A program made the position numbers and the translations under genes. This document shows positions 7,640 through 33,270 of a stretch of DNA of 33,282 nucleotides, in pieces. The stretch is from IMG/VR virus record IMGVR_UViG_3300020436_000041, positions 1-33,282 of that record, one strand, 5' to 3'. Every line of letters starts with the position of its first letter. Position 1 is the stretch's first letter. The stretch comes from a virus. Under the pieces are notes generated by a model that did no database searches, was not told where the DNA came from, and was given only the letters and a program-made list of their open reading frames with translations.

Positions 7640-7662
7640 TTTAAAATAAATTAAATAAAAAA

Positions 7663-7670
7663 CGTTATCA
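7663..7670 (+). promoter_or_regulatory. CGTTATCA start-proximal element (copy 2)
   Basis: CGTTATCA followed by AATT and then the ATG at 7675: the same 4-base spacing as the copies before 335, 11673 and 29073. It lies in a 35-base gap after the tape-measure-like gene, with an A-rich upstream flank. Confidence 0.6.
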
Positions 7671-7674
7671 AATT

Positions 7675-11636: not shown

Positions 11637-11660
11637 ATATAAAACAAAATTTAATTTTTA

Positions 11661-11668
11661 CGTTATCA
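11661..11668 (+). promoter_or_regulatory. CGTTATCA start-proximal element (copy 3)
   Basis: CGTTATCA, then TATT, then the ATG at 11673. The block from ACAAAATTTAA to the ATG is nearly identical to that before the gene at 335. It is confined to the 36 bases between a strong terminator and a start codon. Confidence 0.65.
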
Positions 11669-11672
11669 TATT

Positions 11673-24523: not shown

Positions 24524-24918
24524 AAAGTATTACTTTAATATGCCCATTATACATAACTCTACCAAGAGTTAAAACTAAAGATAAAAAGATTGCTATAAAT
24601 CTTAACACTTATAGAAATCTATATCATTATACAAATAATGAGGTTAAAAAGAAGTACTTAGAGCTTATCAAAGAACAATTAAAAGGTGTTGTAATTCAAA
24701 CACCTGTAGAAGTTACATACAAAATATACAAACCAACAAAACGAAAGCTTGACAAAATGAATGTTGTTAGCATAACGTCAAAGTATTTGATGGATGCTAT
24801 AACACAATTAGGTTGTTGGGAAGATGACAATGACGATTTTATAAAAACAGAAACAATAATGCCGACAGAATTAGATAGAGAAAATGCAAGAGTTGAAGTT
24901 TTTATAAATAGTATATGA
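24520..24918 (+). CDS. RusA-like Holliday junction resolvase
   Basis: The 132-residue protein starts with GTG overlapping the ATPase stop (GTGA). It shows the RusA pattern: a basic N-terminal part, then KRKLDKMNVVSITSKYLMDA (74-93) and CWEDDNDDF (99-107). The acidic residues Asp78, Asp92 and Asp102/103 fit the metal-binding site of RusA. It would cut four-way junctions before packaging. The first Asp cluster is D-K-M-N rather than D-x-D-N, so one acidic residue of the classical site is absent. Confidence 0.7.
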   Translation: MKSITLICPLYITLPRVKTKDKKIAINLNTYRNLYHYTNNEVKKKYLELIKEQLKGVVIQTPVEVTYKIYKPTKRKLDKMNVVSITSKYLMDAITQLGCWEDDNDDFIKTETIMPTELDRENARVEVFINSI

Positions 24919-25475
24919 ATGTTTTAGGAAAGATAGCTAAGAACCACAAATTATGGCTTAAAATGGTTCTTAACATGGGGTGTAACCCTAACGTAGCAGA
25001 GGACATTGTACAAGAGATGTACATAAGAGTAGATAGATTAATCAAGCAGGGTAAAAATGTTATGTATGACGAGGATTCTGCAAACAGGTTTTATATATAC
25101 CTTACTTTAAAATCTATGTATATAGACTATAAAAGAGCTAAAGGAAAGTATACGTTCTTTGAAATCATGGATAATGACGTTGATTCTATATCAGAAAATC
25201 CAGCATACTATTCTGGAATGGATGTAGAAGAGCAAGAGGCTTTCACAAGATTATACAATAAAATACTAGAAGAAATAAACACTTGGGATTTTTATAACAA
25301 AAACCTTTGTATAGCATATTTTACAACAGGACTGTCTTTAGACAAGCTCGTTAAAGAGCTTGGCATAGGAAGGTCAAGTATATACAATACAATAAAAAAT
25401 CACAGAGAAATTATACAAGATAAATTTAAAGAAGATGTAGAAGATTTTAGAAATAAAGATTATGACAAAATATAA
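24915..25475 (+). CDS. RNA polymerase sigma factor-like protein
   Basis: The product is 186 residues. Residues about 10-75 resemble sigma region 2 (NPNVAEDIVQEMYIRVDRLI; RFYIYLTLKSMYIDYKRAKG), and residues 139-165 form a region 4-like helix-turn-helix (LSLDKLVKELGIGRSSIYNT). The acidic linker between them suits a group 4 (ECF-type) sigma. It would bind host RNA polymerase and direct it to phage promoters, probably for the late block. The CGTTATCA element before the morphogenesis genes is a candidate target, but nothing in the sequence ties the two directly. A transcriptional regulator with a similar HTH is the alternative. Confidence 0.65.
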   Translation: MNVLGKIAKNHKLWLKMVLNMGCNPNVAEDIVQEMYIRVDRLIKQGKNVMYDEDSANRFYIYLTLKSMYIDYKRAKGKYTFFEIMDNDVDSISENPAYYSGMDVEEQEAFTRLYNKILEEINTWDFYNKNLCIAYFTTGLSLDKLVKELGIGRSSIYNTIKNHREIIQDKFKEDVEDFRNKDYDKI

Positions 25476-28155: not shown

Positions 28156-28427
28156 TGAAAGATGGTGTGTCAGACTCAAAGATAGCTGAGTATTTTGCTC
28201 TCACTACCTATGAGTTGGAGAAGGGAACTAGTGTTGAGGAGATTGAAGAGATTTTAAAAGAGTACGAAAAAAGAGAAATGTATTTAGAATGTGCTGGTAT
28301 TTATAACGCAATAGAGTGTTATAAGTTTCATATCAGCGTTGACTTAGCAAAAATTTACAGTAGTAATAAAATAAAGAATAACATAAAGTTTATAGAGAAT
28401 GATAAAAAAAATAAGAAAGGAAGTTGA
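28155..28427 (+). CDS. 90-residue hypothetical protein
   Basis: Acidic at first and basic at the end, with two helices (SVEEIEEILKEYEKREMYLE; CAGIYNAIECYKFHISVDLA). It overlaps the next gene by 29 bases. No motif was recognised; it lies between the FEN nuclease and the DnaA-like gene and may belong to the replication complex. Confidence 0.55.
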   Translation: MKDGVSDSKIAEYFALTTYELEKGTSVEEIEEILKEYEKREMYLECAGIYNAIECYKFHISVDLAKIYSSNKIKNNIKFIENDKKNKKGS

Positions 28428-28848
28428 AGAAGCTACTTGTCAGGACTTGTCAAGGAAAAGTAGACAAAGAGAGCTTGTTTATGCAAGAGCAATATATTTT
28501 AAATTGTGTAAGGAAAAAACTACACTAACGTTACAGCAAATAGGAGACAGTCTTGGATTGAACCATGCAACTGTTTTACATGGACTCAACAAAGTTTTTC
28601 CTACAGTCATAGAGCATGAGCCTTTGTATAAAGAAATATACGAATGTGTAAGAAACCAAGAAGATTTGGCATACTTGAAAGAAAACTACAACGCTTTAAG
28701 AAAGCAATACGACAAGCTGTTAAAGTTAAAAACATTTGACGAACATACAGAGCTTGTTGATATTGTAAGAGAAGTTCCTAAAAGACATATTGAACTAGCA
28801 AAGATTAGAATTAGAGCTATGGTTGATATGATGAAAACATATGCGTAA
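28399..28848 (+). CDS. DnaA domain IV-like DNA-binding protein
   Basis: The 149-residue protein contains the DnaA C-terminal DNA-binding pattern: DLSRKSRQRELVYARAIYF (16-34) and LTLQQIGDSLGLNHATVLHG (43-62). These match the basic loop and the helix-turn-helix with the (H/N)xxTVLHxxxK signature that contacts DnaA boxes. The AAA+ ATPase domain of full DnaA is absent. The C-terminal half is a charged coiled coil. It may bind the phage origin or act as a regulator; the TTTAACATG / ATGTTAAA arrays at 30684-33236 are candidate targets by inference only. Confidence 0.75.
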   Translation: MIKKIRKEVEEATCQDLSRKSRQRELVYARAIYFKLCKEKTTLTLQQIGDSLGLNHATVLHGLNKVFPTVIEHEPLYKEIYECVRNQEDLAYLKENYNALRKQYDKLLKLKTFDEHTELVDIVREVPKRHIELAKIRIRAMVDMMKTYA

Positions 28849-29056
28849 GATAAAGGTTTTAAATCCTAAAGCTGTTCAATGGTGTATGGCAAATGATTTT
28901 ATAATTTACCCTGTAACAAAAGACAATCAGAATTATAATATTGTTATAGAGAAGGGAAATAGAAAAGTTGTTGTAAGTGAAGTCTTTAACAAGAAATCAG
29001 TACAAGAAGGAATAGCTGATGTGTATTTAAAACTGTACGAAAAACATAATAAATAA
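28841..29056 (+). CDS. 71-residue hypothetical protein
   Basis: A small basic protein with a beta-rich core (FIIYPVTKDNQNYNIVIEKG; NRKVVVSEVFNKKSVQEGIA). It is the last gene before the terminase block and overlaps the DnaA-like gene by eight bases. Function unknown. Confidence 0.55.
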   Translation: MRKIKVLNPKAVQWCMANDFIIYPVTKDNQNYNIVIEKGNRKVVVSEVFNKKSVQEGIADVYLKLYEKHNK

Positions 29057-29060
29057 TATA

Positions 29061-29068
29061 CGTTATCA
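29061..29068 (+). promoter_or_regulatory. CGTTATCA start-proximal element (copy 4)
   Basis: CGTTATCA ends four bases before the ATG at 29073, as in the copies at 323, 7663 and 11661. It heads the terminase pair, so the element is shared by all clear morphogenesis starts that begin after a gap except 9508 (18 bases) and 11009 (absent). Confidence 0.6.
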
Positions 29069-29072
29069 TTAT

Positions 29073-29471
29073 ATGGCAAGAGCTAAGAAAAATAATTCTA
29101 CAGAAATCAAAAGAACAGATGGTAGAAAAAACAATAAAAGGTTAGCACCCAAACCTATATCTACTATAAAGAAACTTTCTCCAGCCAGACAAAACAAAGC
29201 TAAAAGAGAAAGGATTTCTTCTTATGCTACCTCAGCAATGAAAGATGTTTTTGGAAGCGAGAAAGAGGCCTTTAAACATTTAGCAGAGCTTGCTAAGAAA
29301 AACTTTACTCACATGAAACTGTTAATGGAATATGCTTATGGTAAACCTTCAGACAGTATAAATGATTCTGCTAAAAATAATAAGATACAAGTTCCTGTAA
29401 TAAACTTCTTTAACAATAAGGATAAGGATTTAGAAGATGAAGTTATTGATGTAACTCCAGAAGATGAATAG
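29073..29471 (+). CDS. terS: putative terminase small subunit
   Basis: The 132-residue protein has a strongly basic N-terminal 50 residues (RKNNKRLAPKPISTIKKLSP), a helical middle (KEAFKHLAELAKKNFTHMKL; LMEYAYGKPSD) and an acidic tail (DKDLEDEVIDVTPEDE). This resembles small terminases of the DUF5681/Terminase-small-like kind, and it overlaps the large subunit gene by eight bases. The usual partner position supports the call; DNA recognition details cannot be read. Confidence 0.7.
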   Translation: MARAKKNNSTEIKRTDGRKNNKRLAPKPISTIKKLSPARQNKAKRERISSYATSAMKDVFGSEKEAFKHLAELAKKNFTHMKLLMEYAYGKPSDSINDSAKNNKIQVPVINFFNNKDKDLEDEVIDVTPEDE

Positions 29472-30678
29472 CAACATAAATCTACACAGTAAATATATTC
29501 CTTTGTTTCAATCAAAGAGTAGATACTTTGTCATAACAGGAGGAAGAGGTAGTGGTAAGAGTTTTGGTGTTGCTTTGTTCTTGCTGAACCTAACGTATGA
29601 GCATGGACATAAAGTATTGTTTACTAGATATACTTTGACATCAGCAAACACTTCAATCATTCCTGAGTTTATTGAGAAAATAGATTTGATGGATGTTCAT
29701 AATGATTTCAGGATAACAAAGGATGAGATAATAAACCTTAAAACAAACAGCTCTATAATGTTTAAAGGTATAAGAACATCTTCAGGTAATCAAACAGCAG
29801 CTCTTAAATCTTTGAACGGAGTAACAACTTTCGTTGTAGATGAAGCAGAAGAGCTTTTAGAAGAAGATGTCTTTAACAAGATAGACTTCTCTATTCGTAC
29901 ACAGGGAAAGCAAAATAGATGTATACTTATATTGAATCCAGCTACTAAAGAGCATTGGATATATCAAAGATTCTTTTTATACAAAAACGTCAAGGGGGGT
30001 TACAATGGTGTTACAAAAGACGCAACATATATACACACCACATATGAGGACAACAAAGATAATTTATCTGAATCATTTGTAAGCCAGATACTTGACATGA
30101 AGAGACGTTCTCCTAGCAAGTTTGAACACATAATACTTGGAGGTTGGATGGAGAAAGCAGAGGGAACAATAATCAGGAATTGGAAAGTAGGAGAGTTTGC
30201 ACAAACAGAATTAACCTGCTACGGACAAGACTTTGGATTCTCTATGGATATGACAACATTAGTAAAAGTTTCTGTTGATAAACAAGTGAGAAAGGTTTAT
30301 GTCAAAGAAGTGTTTGGAAAGACAGGCTTGTCTACTTCAGACATAGCTTTTATGAATAGGAAAGAATGTGGTGCTGACTTAATTATATGTGATAGCTCAG
30401 AGCCAAGATTAATAAAAGAATTAAAAAATACAGGCCTTAACATAAGGCCTACTATAAAGAGAAAGGGAAGTATACTTTCAGGTATTGCTTTAATGCAGGA
30501 CTATGAAATAATTGTAGAAAGAAACTCTCATAATATTATAAGAGAATTTAACAACTATGTTTGGCATGAGAAAGGGCAGAAGCCTATAGATAAATACAAT
30601 CACTTCATAGACGCTATAAGATATTCTCTTCAGTATTTAGTTCAGGGTGTTAACTCTGGAAAGTATGTTATAAGGTAA
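29464..30678 (+). CDS. terL: terminase large subunit
   Basis: This 404-residue protein is the packaging motor. The ATPase half has Walker A GGRGSGKS (26-33), Walker B VVDEAEE (124-130) and a coupling motif LNPATKEHW (157-165). The nuclease half has acidic residues at Asp256 (YGQDFGFS), Asp310 (IICDSSEP) and Asp383 (HFIDAIRYS), which fit the RNase H-like metal site of the Terminase_3 family. The length is normal for small siphoviruses. The enzyme cuts and translocates the genome into the prohead through the portal encoded at 13536. The packaging mode (cos or headful) cannot be told from here. Confidence 0.9.
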   Translation: MNSNINLHSKYIPLFQSKSRYFVITGGRGSGKSFGVALFLLNLTYEHGHKVLFTRYTLTSANTSIIPEFIEKIDLMDVHNDFRITKDEIINLKTNSSIMFKGIRTSSGNQTAALKSLNGVTTFVVDEAEELLEEDVFNKIDFSIRTQGKQNRCILILNPATKEHWIYQRFFLYKNVKGGYNGVTKDATYIHTTYEDNKDNLSESFVSQILDMKRRSPSKFEHIILGGWMEKAEGTIIRNWKVGEFAQTELTCYGQDFGFSMDMTTLVKVSVDKQVRKVYVKEVFGKTGLSTSDIAFMNRKECGADLIICDSSEPRLIKELKNTGLNIRPTIKRKGSILSGIALMQDYEIIVERNSHNIIREFNNYVWHEKGQKPIDKYNHFIDAIRYSLQYLVQGVNSGKYVIR

Positions 30679-30683
30679 AAGCC

Positions 30684-30758
30684 TTTAACATGAAGGTCTT
30701 TAACATGGAGGTTTGTTTAACATGATGCTCTGTTTAACATGGAGCTTTCTTTAACATG
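30684..30758 (+). repeat. TTTAACATG array, first cluster (5 copies)
   Basis: Copies of TTTAACATG start at 30684, 30699, 30716, 30733 and 30750 (steps of 15, 17, 17 and 17 bases). Several copies sit in a small inverted context, such as CCTT...AAGG or CTC...GAG around the core. There is no spacer-like variability as in CRISPR; the units are short and regular, like iterons or operators. Confidence 0.85.
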
Positions 30759-30891
30759 AGGGCATACCTCTCCCACTTATATTATCGCAAATATAGTCTT
30801 GATTTATTTCTGTTAATCAAGTAAAAAAATTTGCAGAGCTTATTATTTTTTTTATATCGTGCGTGCGTGTTCCTTAATATGTATAAGACAA

Positions 30892-30911
30892 ATGTTAAAG
30901 TTTTGTTAAAG
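30892..30911 (+). promoter_or_regulatory. ATGTTAAA / TTGTTAAA pair upstream of the cassette promoter
   Basis: Two copies (30892-30899 and 30903-30910), 11 bases apart, one helical turn. The first copy starts 45 bases before the -7 box at 30937. The core is the reverse complement of the TTTAACAT repeats. Confidence 0.65.
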
Positions 30912-30936
30912 AATTAGTATTTCACAATTTTGTTAG

Positions 30937-30944
30937 TATCTTTG
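30937..30944 (+). promoter_or_regulatory. TATCTTTG -7 box of the small-gene cassette
   Basis: TATCTTTG fits TAnnTTTG; no TTTG lies at the -33 position, where TTAG is found at best. The ATGTTAAA pair lies just upstream, so the promoter may need an activator. Transcription would start near 30951. Confidence 0.55.
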
Positions 30945-30971
30945 GGGTATTAATAACAAAAATTAAAAAAC

Positions 30972-31163
30972 ATGACAACAGAAGAAAGATTTGAACAAGT
31001 AGCTTATTGGTATAACCAAGTAGATGGTTGTTCACTTTGTAGCGTAGTAGACGCATTATTTCAAGAGATTAACGAGCAGATGAGAGAAGCTGAAGTGCCT
31101 GAAGAATATTATCAAGAGGTGTTTAGTTTAGTGAATGAAGATTATACAATTAAAAGAAATTAA
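30972..31163 (+). CDS. 63-residue acidic hypothetical protein
   Basis: First gene of the tiny-gene cassette. It is acidic and helical, with two Cys in DGCSLCSVVDALFQ. No motif was recognised. It may be an early host-takeover protein; that is inference from size and place only. Confidence 0.55.
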   Translation: MTTEERFEQVAYWYNQVDGCSLCSVVDALFQEINEQMREAEVPEEYYQEVFSLVNEDYTIKRN

Positions 31164-31164
31164 T

Positions 31165-31368
31165 ATGGAGTTTCAAAGAAAATTACAAAACATATTGTAT
31201 AATAGGATTGACTCAAACTACACTTTAATAAAAGAGTTAGTAGCTATTATCCAAGATGTTGCAGAGGATAATGATATGAACCTTGAAGCAGATGAAGTAT
31301 ATTACGGAGCTTTAGAGCATATCTCTGATGAGATTGCTGAATCAATGCTACAAAACGAAATAACTTAA
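31165..31368 (+). CDS. 67-residue acidic hypothetical protein
   Basis: I chose the ATG at 31165, one base after the previous stop; an in-frame ATG 10 codons upstream would overlap the preceding gene. The product is helical and acidic (LVAIIQDVAEDNDMNLEADE). No family was recognised. Confidence 0.55.
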   Translation: MEFQRKLQNILYNRIDSNYTLIKELVAIIQDVAEDNDMNLEADEVYYGALEHISDEIAESMLQNEIT

Positions 31369-31369
31369 T

Positions 31370-31600
31370 ATGGATATATATGAGATAAAAGAAAGGAGTA
31401 AGGAGTCAGCTCCTCACTTCTTTAGCAAGGAAACTTTAAAGTTCTTTGGACAAAGAATGAGTAGTTTCAGAGTACATAAAGTCAATAAGTATGAGTATTA
31501 TATAAATGCTCCAAGCTATTTGAATGGTAAGCTTATGGGGTATACTGAAAGATTATTTGACACAAGAACCAATGAGTTAAAATTTATAAAAGATGAATAA
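31370..31600 (+). CDS. 76-residue hypothetical protein
   Basis: A basic, probably alpha/beta protein (KFFGQRMSSFRVHKVNKYEY; YINAPSYLNGKLMGYTERLF) one base after its neighbour's stop. It overlaps the next gene by eight bases. Function unknown. Confidence 0.55.
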   Translation: MDIYEIKERSKESAPHFFSKETLKFFGQRMSSFRVHKVNKYEYYINAPSYLNGKLMGYTERLFDTRTNELKFIKDE

Positions 31601-31793
31601 AAACATAAACGAAACAATAAAAGATGAGTTCCTTCATTATGATGAGGGAGAGCTTGACAGAGTTTTAAGCATGACAAAAGAAGAGCTTCTTTACAGCTTG
31701 TTAATGTGGAGAAGGGTAGCGTATGAGTTTGGTTACAGAGACTCAAATCAAACTTTGTTAAGAAGAACAATTAAAAAAGGTAAAATTATTTAA
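31593..31793 (+). CDS. 66-residue hypothetical protein
   Basis: Acidic first half and basic last third (LLYSLLMWRRVAYEFGYRDS; LLRRTIKKGKII). It starts inside the end of the preceding gene. No motif was recognised. Confidence 0.5.
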   Translation: MNKNINETIKDEFLHYDEGELDRVLSMTKEELLYSLLMWRRVAYEFGYRDSNQTLLRRTIKKGKII

Positions 31794-31795
31794 TT

Positions 31796-31966
31796 ATGGA
31801 CAAGAGTAATTACATTAAAACAGGGCTTATACCCTCAGCTTTTTCTATGCCTGTTTATCATACTATAGTAGATGATAAAATATACTTTGACTTTGACAGG
31901 CTTGACGAAATATATCGACACCACATAGAACAATTAAAAATAATAGAACATGGAAACAACCAATAA
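31796..31966 (+). CDS. 56-residue hypothetical protein
   Basis: A short frame in the gap between 31793 and 31950, overlapping the next gene by 17 bases. The sequence has a beta-like middle (MPVYHTIVDDKIYFDFDRLD) and a helix at the end. Unknown. Confidence 0.5.
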   Translation: MDKSNYIKTGLIPSAFSMPVYHTIVDDKIYFDFDRLDEIYRHHIEQLKIIEHGNNQ

Positions 31967-32369
31967 AACCTACTACATAGAGATTGTGAATTACCCTTTG
32001 GGATTTGAAGGTTTTGCAGAGGTTAAGCCGTACAAAAGTTATGGCAATAATCTTAAAGAAGCTCAAAATGATTTTGAGGAATTCTGCTTGTTTAACGAGA
32101 ATGTTAGAGATAGCGTAATTCAGTTATACGAGTATGACGAAGAATTATATATGGACACATTAATAAAAAGTTATTGCAGTAATCTTAAAGAAGACACGAA
32201 ACATATTTACAATATTTATTGGACAGATAGTTACGGCAATAAGGATTTTGTAGCAAGCACCTATGATGTTAATAAGTGGTTAGAAGAAAACAATAAACAA
32301 AGAATGGCAGACGGAAGTGAGCCAGAAAGTATAACAGAATTTCAAATAGAAAAAAGAATAATAACATGA
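31950..32369 (+). CDS. 139-residue acidic hypothetical protein
   Basis: The largest member of the cassette: acidic, with aromatic and polar residues (YYIEIVNYPLGFEGFAEVKP; IYNIYWTDSYGNKDFVASTY). It overlaps both neighbours. No family was recognised; the acidic, compact look is common in phage inhibitors of host or defence proteins, but this is only a possibility. Confidence 0.55.
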   Translation: METTNKTYYIEIVNYPLGFEGFAEVKPYKSYGNNLKEAQNDFEEFCLFNENVRDSVIQLYEYDEELYMDTLIKSYCSNLKEDTKHIYNIYWTDSYGNKDFVASTYDVNKWLEENNKQRMADGSEPESITEFQIEKRIIT

Positions 32370-32581
32370 GAAAAAAATATAAGAAAGTAATTGATTTTTA
32401 TAATCAAACTGACTCAGAACAAAAGAGGTATTTTTTAGAGTTAATAAGTGATAAAATAACTATTCCTACTCAAAAAGATAAGGGGGTTGTAGTTTATAAT
32501 TTAGATGAGGAACTTCCTGTTATTATAAACGGAATCTTTTTTCAGCTAAATACAGAAGCATGGAGGAGTTTAAAAAAATGA
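32366..32581 (+). CDS. 71-residue hypothetical protein
   Basis: Begins with a basic helix (RKKYKKVIDFYNQTDSEQKR) and continues with beta-like segments (GVVVYNLDEELPVIINGIFF). The start overlaps the previous gene (ATGA). Unknown. Confidence 0.5.
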   Translation: MRKKYKKVIDFYNQTDSEQKRYFLELISDKITIPTQKDKGVVVYNLDEELPVIINGIFFQLNTEAWRSLKK

Positions 32582-32584
32582 AGC

Positions 32585-32713
32585 ATGAGAGATAGATACG
32601 AAATGATTAGAGACTCAGTTCAAAAGTTTATGGAGAGGCCTGTACTCTCTGTATTTCAAGCTCTATTAATTTATTTAATATGGGCTGTAGTTTTATTTTT
32701 GGTTTTTGTTTAA
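32585..32713 (+). CDS. 42-residue membrane mini-protein
   Basis: The last frame of the cassette. The first 20 residues are charged, and the remainder is one hydrophobic segment (VFQALLIYLIWAVVLFLVFV), so it should be a C-terminally anchored inner-membrane peptide. Its stop codon TAA lies inside the first TTTAACATG copy of the second array, so gene end and repeat are fused. Possible roles are superinfection exclusion or lysis timing; not proven. Confidence 0.55.
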   Translation: MRDRYEMIRDSVQKFMERPVLSVFQALLIYLIWAVVLFLVFV

Positions 32714-32802
32714 CATGAGGGGGGAAATTTTTTTCCTCCCTTGTTTAACATGAACCTTCTTTAACATGGAGCTGTTTAACATGATGTCCTCTGTTTAACA
32801 TG
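32709..32802 (+). repeat. TTTAACATG array, second cluster (5 copies)
   Basis: Copies start at 32709, 32744, 32760, 32775 and 32794. The 35-base step between the first two contains a G/C-rich hairpin (32717-32741), and the others are 16, 15 and 19 bases apart. Flanks again pair across the core, for example CCTC ... GAGG around the last copy. Confidence 0.85.
32717..32741 (+). terminator. G/C-rich hairpin after the small-gene cassette
   Basis: The G-rich GGGGGGAAA pairs with TTTCCTCCC over a short T loop, one pair being G-U. Only a weak T-rich stretch follows, so termination is plausible but not canonical. Confidence 0.5.
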
Positions 32803-32812
32803 AGGGTACTCC

Positions 32813-32858
32813 TTTTTTGTTGGAGGGGTATCCTGGTAATCTTTTTTTGTTGGAGGGG
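32813..32858 (+). repeat. two copies of TTTTTTGTTGGAGGGG
   Basis: Identical 16-base copies at 32813-32828 and 32843-32858, 30 bases apart. The first is preceded by CTCC, which can pair with GGAG in the repeat to make a small hairpin. Confidence 0.75.
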
Positions 32859-32862
32859 GTAA

Positions 32863-32882
32863 ATGTTAAAATTATGTTAAAG
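32863..32882 (+). repeat. ATGTTAAA tandem pair
   Basis: ATGTTAAA at 32863-32870 and 32874-32881, 11 bases apart. No matching -7 box lies 45 bases downstream, so this pair may be a binding site not tied to a promoter. Confidence 0.6.
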
Positions 32883-33124
32883 TTTTGCACAGCTTAAAAA
32901 TATTTATTACAGAGTTTTCTCCTGTGATTTGGTGCAATTCTATGACAAAAAAAAACTAGTAGAAAAATATAAATTATTTTGGTAGTGTAAAAATAATTTT
33001 GTATGGGCTTAAAATAAGCCGTTTTAAGAGCTTTTAACCCTTCGCTAGTATATAGATATTAAAAAGCTGAGAAAGTGCATTAAACGAAATTTACCAGAGA
33101 AGAAACAAAAAAAATAATCGGTAA

Positions 33125-33155
33125 ATGTTAAAATTTATGTTAAAATTATGTTAAA
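33125..33155 (+). repeat. ATGTTAAA tandem triplet
   Basis: Perfect copies at 33125, 33137 and 33148 (steps of 12 and 11 bases). This is the longest run of this motif in the window. Confidence 0.7.
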
Positions 33156-33216
33156 ATGTATACAACCTATTAAAATTTTTCGTATAAAAGAAAGTAAATC
33201 AAACGAATTAACGCAA

Positions 33217-33236
33217 ATGTTAAAATTTTGTTAAAG
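33217..33236 (+). promoter_or_regulatory. ATGTTAAA / TTGTTAAA pair before the right-edge promoter
   Basis: Copies at 33217-33224 and 33228-33235, 11 bases apart, the first 46 bases before the -7 box at 33263. The arrangement repeats that at 30892-30944. Confidence 0.65.
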
Positions 33237-33237
33237 T

Positions 33238-33270
33238 TTTGGAATATTAACAATTATGTTTATATATTTG
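33238..33270 (+). promoter_or_regulatory. promoter at the right edge of the window
   Basis: TTTG (33238-33241), a 21-base spacer and TATATTTG (33263-33270). Transcription would begin near 33277, five bases before the window ends, so the target lies beyond the edge or, if the genome is circular, in the 1-334 leader. Confidence 0.7.

Follow-up and report, generated by a model that had tools for sequence, protein, structure and literature searches.

An operon-end repeat element with fixed orientation, genome-typed core and odd core spacing in a group of flavobacterial-type phages

Introduction

The stoperators of Cluster A mycobacteriophages, such as L5 and Bxb1, are short, asymmetric sites that are present in many copies between genes or at gene ends, in one orientation and with a group-specific consensus (PMC3029335, PMC6550527). 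The arrays described here share with them the asymmetric site in one orientation (with the caveat that these phages have almost all their genes on one strand), the gene-end placement and the group-specific consensus. However, stoperators are 23-36 scattered single sites, whereas the arrays are tandem clusters of 2-7 cores at operon ends, with odd spacing and with G/C runs 3' of the core, and no cognate repressor or lysogeny genes were identified. Because the sites are not scattered singly and no repressor was identified, the arrays were not filed as stoperators.

Intrinsic terminators are similar to the arrays in their location 3' of operons and in the G/C hairpin in the sense RNA, and some array units end in T-runs. 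Unlike intrinsic terminators, the arrays repeat a conserved core in loops and linkers, and most contain no T5 run. Since most are without a U-tract, they were not filed as plain intrinsic terminators either; ordinary, core-free intrinsic terminators coexist with them in the same genomes. REP units conserve the stem. Like REP/BIME elements, the arrays are intergenic, clustered and often found at the 3' end of an operon, but it is the linear core that is conserved in the arrays, whilst the flanks vary, and they are restricted to one phage lineage.

TIGR arrays consist of two alternating repeats with 9-nt spacers and lie adjacent to a gene for a Nop-domain (Tas) protein (PMC12045711). They are comparable as phage-borne tandem arrays of 8-12-nt repeats with short spacers, but the arrays studied here have one core and low-complexity spacers of variable length, and identity with TIGR-Tas was rejected on anatomy. 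No match to a Nop-domain protein was found among the proteins scanned with Pfam in the window, i.e., the whole stretch of 33,282 bases that was analyzed. VIPR RNAs are characterized by alternating GGY/NN motifs (PMC13142463); the alternation given there was not seen in the arrays, and this identity was also rejected. Rfam covariance models gave no match.

The carrier phage and its two arrays

The window corresponds to an entire IMG/VR record of an uncultured marine phage of flavobacterial type. Other proteins encoded besides the terminase are a portal protein, an ERF-type annealing protein and a DnaA domain-IV protein. The genes and arrays most relevant here are the following:

28399-28848, + strand: DnaA domain-IV-like protein (PF08299, by Pfam), a candidate core-binding factor
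29464-30678, + strand: terminase large subunit (terL), final gene of the operon closed by array 1 (PHROG matches; 51% identity to Nonlabens phages P12024S/L)
30684-30758, + strand: array 1, five copies of TTTAACATG at 30684, 30699, 30716, 30733 and 30750 (steps 15, 17, 17, 17; core count)
32709-32802, + strand: array 2, five copies of TTTAACATG at 32709, 32744, 32760, 32775 and 32794 (steps 35, 16, 15, 19; core count)
32803-32861, + strand: tail of array 2, made up of a hairpin resembling a terminator (32803-32834) and a second unit, TTTTTGTTGGAGGG, in two copies (~32813-32861; sequence, terminator scan)

The initial annotation had reported ten perfect copies of a 9-base core in two clusters, and the count over the whole window bears this out: TTTAACATG occurs exactly ten times, always on the + strand and in two clusters, where about one copy is expected. 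In dinucleotide-shuffled versions of the window, its mean count was 1.0 and its maximum 5, and ten copies were never attained. The core positions reproduce the steps of 15, 17, 17 and 17 bases given for the first cluster, and the second cluster does start within the stop codon that ends the cassette, as core 6 (32709-32717) overlaps the TAA (32711-32713) of the ORF at 32585-32713. The short complementary arms seen around several cores are real as well: CCTT/AAGG (30682-30696), GCTC/GAGC (30727-30745) and CCTC/GAGG (32788-32805). Two features had escaped that first reading, i.e., the onset of array 1 only 5 nt past the terL stop codon and the extension of array 2 into the two TTTTTGTTGGAGGG units. 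The hairpins within the arrays are:

30682-30696, + strand: CCTT-TAACATG-AAGG, enclosing core 1 (sequence; also in the minimum-energy fold)
30727-30745, + strand: GCTC-TGTTTAACATG-GAGC, its loop containing core 4; resembles a terminator, the weak T tail being TTTCTTT (terminator scan, fold)
32717-32739, + strand: GGGGGGAAA/TTTCCTCC, terminator-like, within array 2 (terminator scan, fold)
32788-32805, + strand: CCTC-TGTTTAACAT-GAGG, enclosing core 10 (sequence)

Several other elements were seen in the window. A motif like CGTTATCATATT is located immediately 5' of structural genes (314-334, 7656-7674, 11655-11672 and 29050-29066), and TTTTTCGTTACTATAGT is found at comparable places in P12024S; this motif may be a phage promoter. 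A conserved noncoding stretch 5' of the first structural gene (80-190; GAAAACAACAAAGGATT..GCAATT..CTAAGGAGATTTA) is common to relatives and may serve in packaging or as a promoter. The gene at 24915-25475 gave a weak match to sigma-70 region 2 as well as HTH matches.

The cassette between the arrays

The DNA between the two arrays consists of a putative regulatory gap and a set of small genes:

30759-30971, + strand: putative regulatory gap from array 1 to the cassette, with a CGTGCGTGCGTG element, TGTTAAA repeats and TAGTATCTTTG (sequence)
30972-32713, + strand: cassette, an optional module with eight ORFs of 42-139 aa (ORF calls, loci of relatives)

The cassette ORFs have little or no annotation, and relatives were found among the fetched loci for just two of them. 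Six close relatives (G001, G002, G003, G017, L010 and L099) are without the cassette and have one array at this place, and the DNA 3' of their terL array matches that 3' of array 2 in the window (~32948-33004; in L010 up to 33154 and beyond). Since these six run from the terL array directly into post-array-2 DNA, the window has one extra promoter-genes-array module. The earlier suggestion of an exchangeable cassette boundary is thus right about presence and absence between arrays in these six relatives but too narrow, as arrays also close terminase, lysis and some structural-gene segments. In the relatives that lack the cassette, a stretch of ~2-3 kb, including further small genes, separates the matches to the right and left ends of the window; because relatives carry it between both end matches, the window contig probably misses this stretch. 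The contig ends (33282/1) lie within noncoding DNA.

In the regulatory gap, TAGTATCTTTG resembles TAnnTTTG, a promoter element of Bacteroidetes. The alternating, CG-rich CGTGCGTGCGTG (30864-30876) lies ~110 nt 3' of array 1, and akin elements, e.g., CGTGCGCACGTTCC, are found 3' of the terL array in many relatives. TGTTAAA repeats recur every 11-12 bp in promoter-like gaps (30890-30914, 32861-32886, 33121-33157 and 33215-33241); they contain the reverse complement of TTTAACAT and are matched in relatives.

Distribution of the arrays across the phage lineage

Relatives were found by a TerL search, which yielded 80 loci, and whole contigs were inspected for 17 relatives. Most of the 80 loci have an array directly 3' of the terL operon, with a core that differs between relatives (TTTAACATG, TTTAACATT, TGTTTAATATNATGGGG, CTCTTAAACATAGTAGGGG, CCGTCTTTGTTATGGGGG or CTCTTTTTTTTAGTACCCCC). 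The cores fall into types A to D that go with phage subgroups, i.e., TTTAAYAT, CTTAAACATAGTA and the rarer TCTTTGTTATG and TCTTTTTTTTAGTA. The initial annotation had named relatives that keep the genes without the arrays as evidence against a role; arrays are present at 41 of the 42 TerL loci with enough flanking sequence, and the single locus without one (L079) has only 720 nt downstream, with a single counted core. In the 17 whole contigs, arrays also close the lysis operon, accessory operons and some structural-gene segments. Their number per genome ranges from one to about six, dispersed and 3' of operons, and copy number varies between close relatives. At two homologous gaps, the one after terL and that between gene families f9 and f24/f47, A-type phages have an A core and B-type phages a B core. 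Such switching of the core with the genome points either to a trans-acting reader or to genome-wide gene conversion.

Viral contigs were also scanned for A patterns, and the resulting counts, taken among the matches listed, are to be read as at least these figures. None of the 99 distinct A arrays, two of which (L094 and L142) resemble chance tandem repeats, falls within an ORF of ≥80 aa; among the matches listed, 46 of them begin ≤10 nt past the upstream stop codon, with a median of 12 nt, and the median distance to the next gene is 255 nt. The 71 distinct B arrays are positioned more tightly (43 of 69 begin ≤10 nt past a stop, median 4 nt), and one of them lies within an ORF. Arrays on both strands of one locus were found at 0 of 192 A loci, among the matches listed, and at 0 of 90 B loci. 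As nearly all genes lie on one strand, orientation relative to transcription is inseparable here from orientation relative to the genome. Most of the A contigs and 89 of the 90 B loci share proteins with the lineage. Contigs L092-L094, L096, L100 and L102 fit the core pattern and were set aside as unrelated short tandem repeats.

A repeat borne by the host was rejected, as a related array was not found in 84,980 species genomes; the two-unit A pattern was present there in only 6 stretches, none with a protein match to the lineage. The isolate phages scanned gave chance-level matches only and no copy of an array. Comparison of the sequences thus shows that the arrays are a repeat element specific to this lineage, which lies at operon ends in one orientation, has a core typed by genome and follows an odd-spacing rule.

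Spacing of the cores

The distance from core to core is nearly always odd. This applies to seven of the eight steps in the window, to 311 odd against 22 even distances between adjacent cores in distinct A arrays and to 163 odd against 21 even distinct A spacers (both among the matches listed). A separate scan for B arrays gave 112 odd versus 10 even among spacers of quite different sequence; an extra, degenerate core is visibly concealed in four of the 10. In 47 non-redundant arrays, the ratio was 110 to 15, or 59 to 15 when the modal length of 19 was left out. The odd and even counts are partly dependent, since related spacers share ancestry; when spacers of all types were collapsed by similarity, 55 odd and 18 even clusters remained. 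Where spacers are related by indels, differences of 2 nt far outnumber those of 1 nt (222:22 and 14:1). The spacers are of low complexity and 3 to >40 nt long. Self-pairing of the spacers was rejected as the source of the odd spacing, and a search for a two-base composition pattern behind it revealed nothing clear.

RNA structure and terminators

The sense RNA of both arrays is more structured than shuffled sequences, with a z-score of -2.44 for array 1 (30676-30785; antisense +0.36) and of -5.30 for array 2 (32700-32845; antisense -3.38). Over the 47 non-redundant arrays, the mean z was -1.99 in sense and -1.20 in antisense (paired p 2e-6), against -0.33 for the DNA just downstream. A T5 run is absent from 34 of these 47, which still have a sense z of -1.87, and the U-tract of array 1 is limited to TTTCTTT. 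A complete terminator is formed by some units, such as core-GGGGGCTATG-core-TAGCCCC-TTTTTT, and one intrinsic terminator lies next to or within many arrays; in several cases it sits 5' of most of the cores.

The core is followed by a G-run or a C-run, the type of which is independent of that of the neighbor (GG 70, GC 34, CG 36, CC 14). Covariation in aligned orthologous arrays was no better than in shuffled ones, with just a hint in one further test. Given the run independence and this level of covariation, hairpins spanning every core were rejected as a general rule. Thus, structure is present on average, and there is no single conserved fold.

The DnaA-domain-IV protein as candidate reader

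Of the 42 TerL loci, 40 encode the DnaA-domain-IV-like protein. The sequence of its recognition helix changes from one core type to the next: NHATV goes with TTTAACATG, DHATV or DHSTV with CTTAAACATAG and DYSSV with the D core. The DHTTV-like recognition motif of this domain-IV-only protein varies widely in the lineage (NHATV, NHCSA, NRASI, DHATV, DYSSV). From these comparisons, the protein is a candidate reader of the core. As an obligatory partner it was rejected, being neither necessary nor sufficient: two relatives (G008 and L057) have arrays and no detected DnaA-like protein, and P12024S has a DnaA-domain protein, gp17 (E 1.8e-12), but no arrays.

Function of the arrays

Their position, their association with terminators and the structure of the sense RNA suggest that the arrays may be 3'-end modules of phage transcription units that end or block transcription. 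This reading is preferred tentatively, at somewhat less than even confidence. Arrays directly 3' of the last stop codon of an operon would halt or delay transcription through weak RNA hairpins in tandem and/or a core-reading factor, perhaps sequence-specific in the manner of stoperators, and would thereby protect the next accessory operon's promoter against read-through. Since every module has its own array, whole promoter-genes-array cassettes could be gained or lost between arrays. Together, these features suggest a signal of an undescribed kind, either for stopping transcription or for marking gene boundaries. Counting against termination are the lack of a clear U-tract in 34 of the 47 non-redundant arrays, the independence of neighboring G- and C-runs and the covariation at shuffled level, and termination leaves the odd spacing unexplained. 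A further possibility, about which considerable doubt remains, is an undescribed class of operon-end element, in which oriented, genome-typed tandem cores at odd distances over 15-53 nt are read in trans under a mod-2 spacing rule that is obeyed by no known terminator, operator or guide-RNA array.

The main rival is that the arrays are duplex sites like stoperators, to which a phage protein, perhaps the one with only DnaA domain IV, binds in one orientation, thus blocking elongation or silencing genes. The asymmetric core, its single orientation, its location at gene ends and its phage-specific consensus are as described for stoperators (PMC3029335, PMC6550527), and the DnaA-like protein, with a helix that differs by core type, is present in 39 of the 41 array-bearing TerL loci. 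However, helix and core types both follow phylogeny, the protein and the arrays each occur without the other in the phages named above, neither a repressor nor an integrase was found among the scanned proteins, and the arrays are better structured in sense than in antisense RNA. This rival is considered unlikely. The operator sites proposed in the initial annotation gain from the genome-typed, oriented, stoperator-like cores near stop codons, whilst the partner protein is a candidate only.

The arrays may instead act in RNA, as 3'-UTR elements in which UUUAAYAU sites bind a host or phage RNA-binding protein for mRNA stabilization, protection of the 3' end or as a sponge. The sense-specific structure, the position right after stop codons and the A/U-rich core between G/C runs would suit such a role, but in the several arrays with a terminator 5' of most cores, upstream transcription would fail to reach a large part of the array, and no candidate RNA-binding partner was found. 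This option is considered quite unlikely. It is improbable that the arrays mainly serve as recombination homology for swapping accessory cassettes. The arrays exactly delimit the segment in which the cassette is present or absent, gene content between arrays is highly variable and the window encodes an ERF-type annealing protein; yet, operons that are not exchangeable (terL, lysis, structural) are closed by arrays too, and orientation, genome typing and odd spacing would be left unexplained.

Two readings are very improbable. The origin iterons considered earlier, or packaging (pac) sites, would fit the repeats near terS/terL and the DnaA-like protein encoded nearby, but the one to about six arrays per genome are dispersed 3' of operons, including those for lysis and structural proteins, rather than confined to one origin, and a skew switch was looked for at the arrays and not found. 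Tandem repeats that have no function and multiply in relaxed gaps through slippage and gene conversion would account for the different copy numbers in close relatives but not for the strict 3' location, the genome-typed core at homologous positions or an odd-length rule that is seen independently in two core types and opposes single-base slippage, the most likely kind (222:22, 14:1).

Biological implications

Gene control in this group of flavobacterial-type phages has hardly been studied. If the arrays end transcription, they would form a lineage-wide boundary system that makes accessory cassettes plug-in units. The core, uniform within a genome and changing between subgroups, offers a natural experiment on the divergence of a site and its reader, and the odd spacing, which two core types show separately, is a clear-cut regularity for which any mechanism must account.
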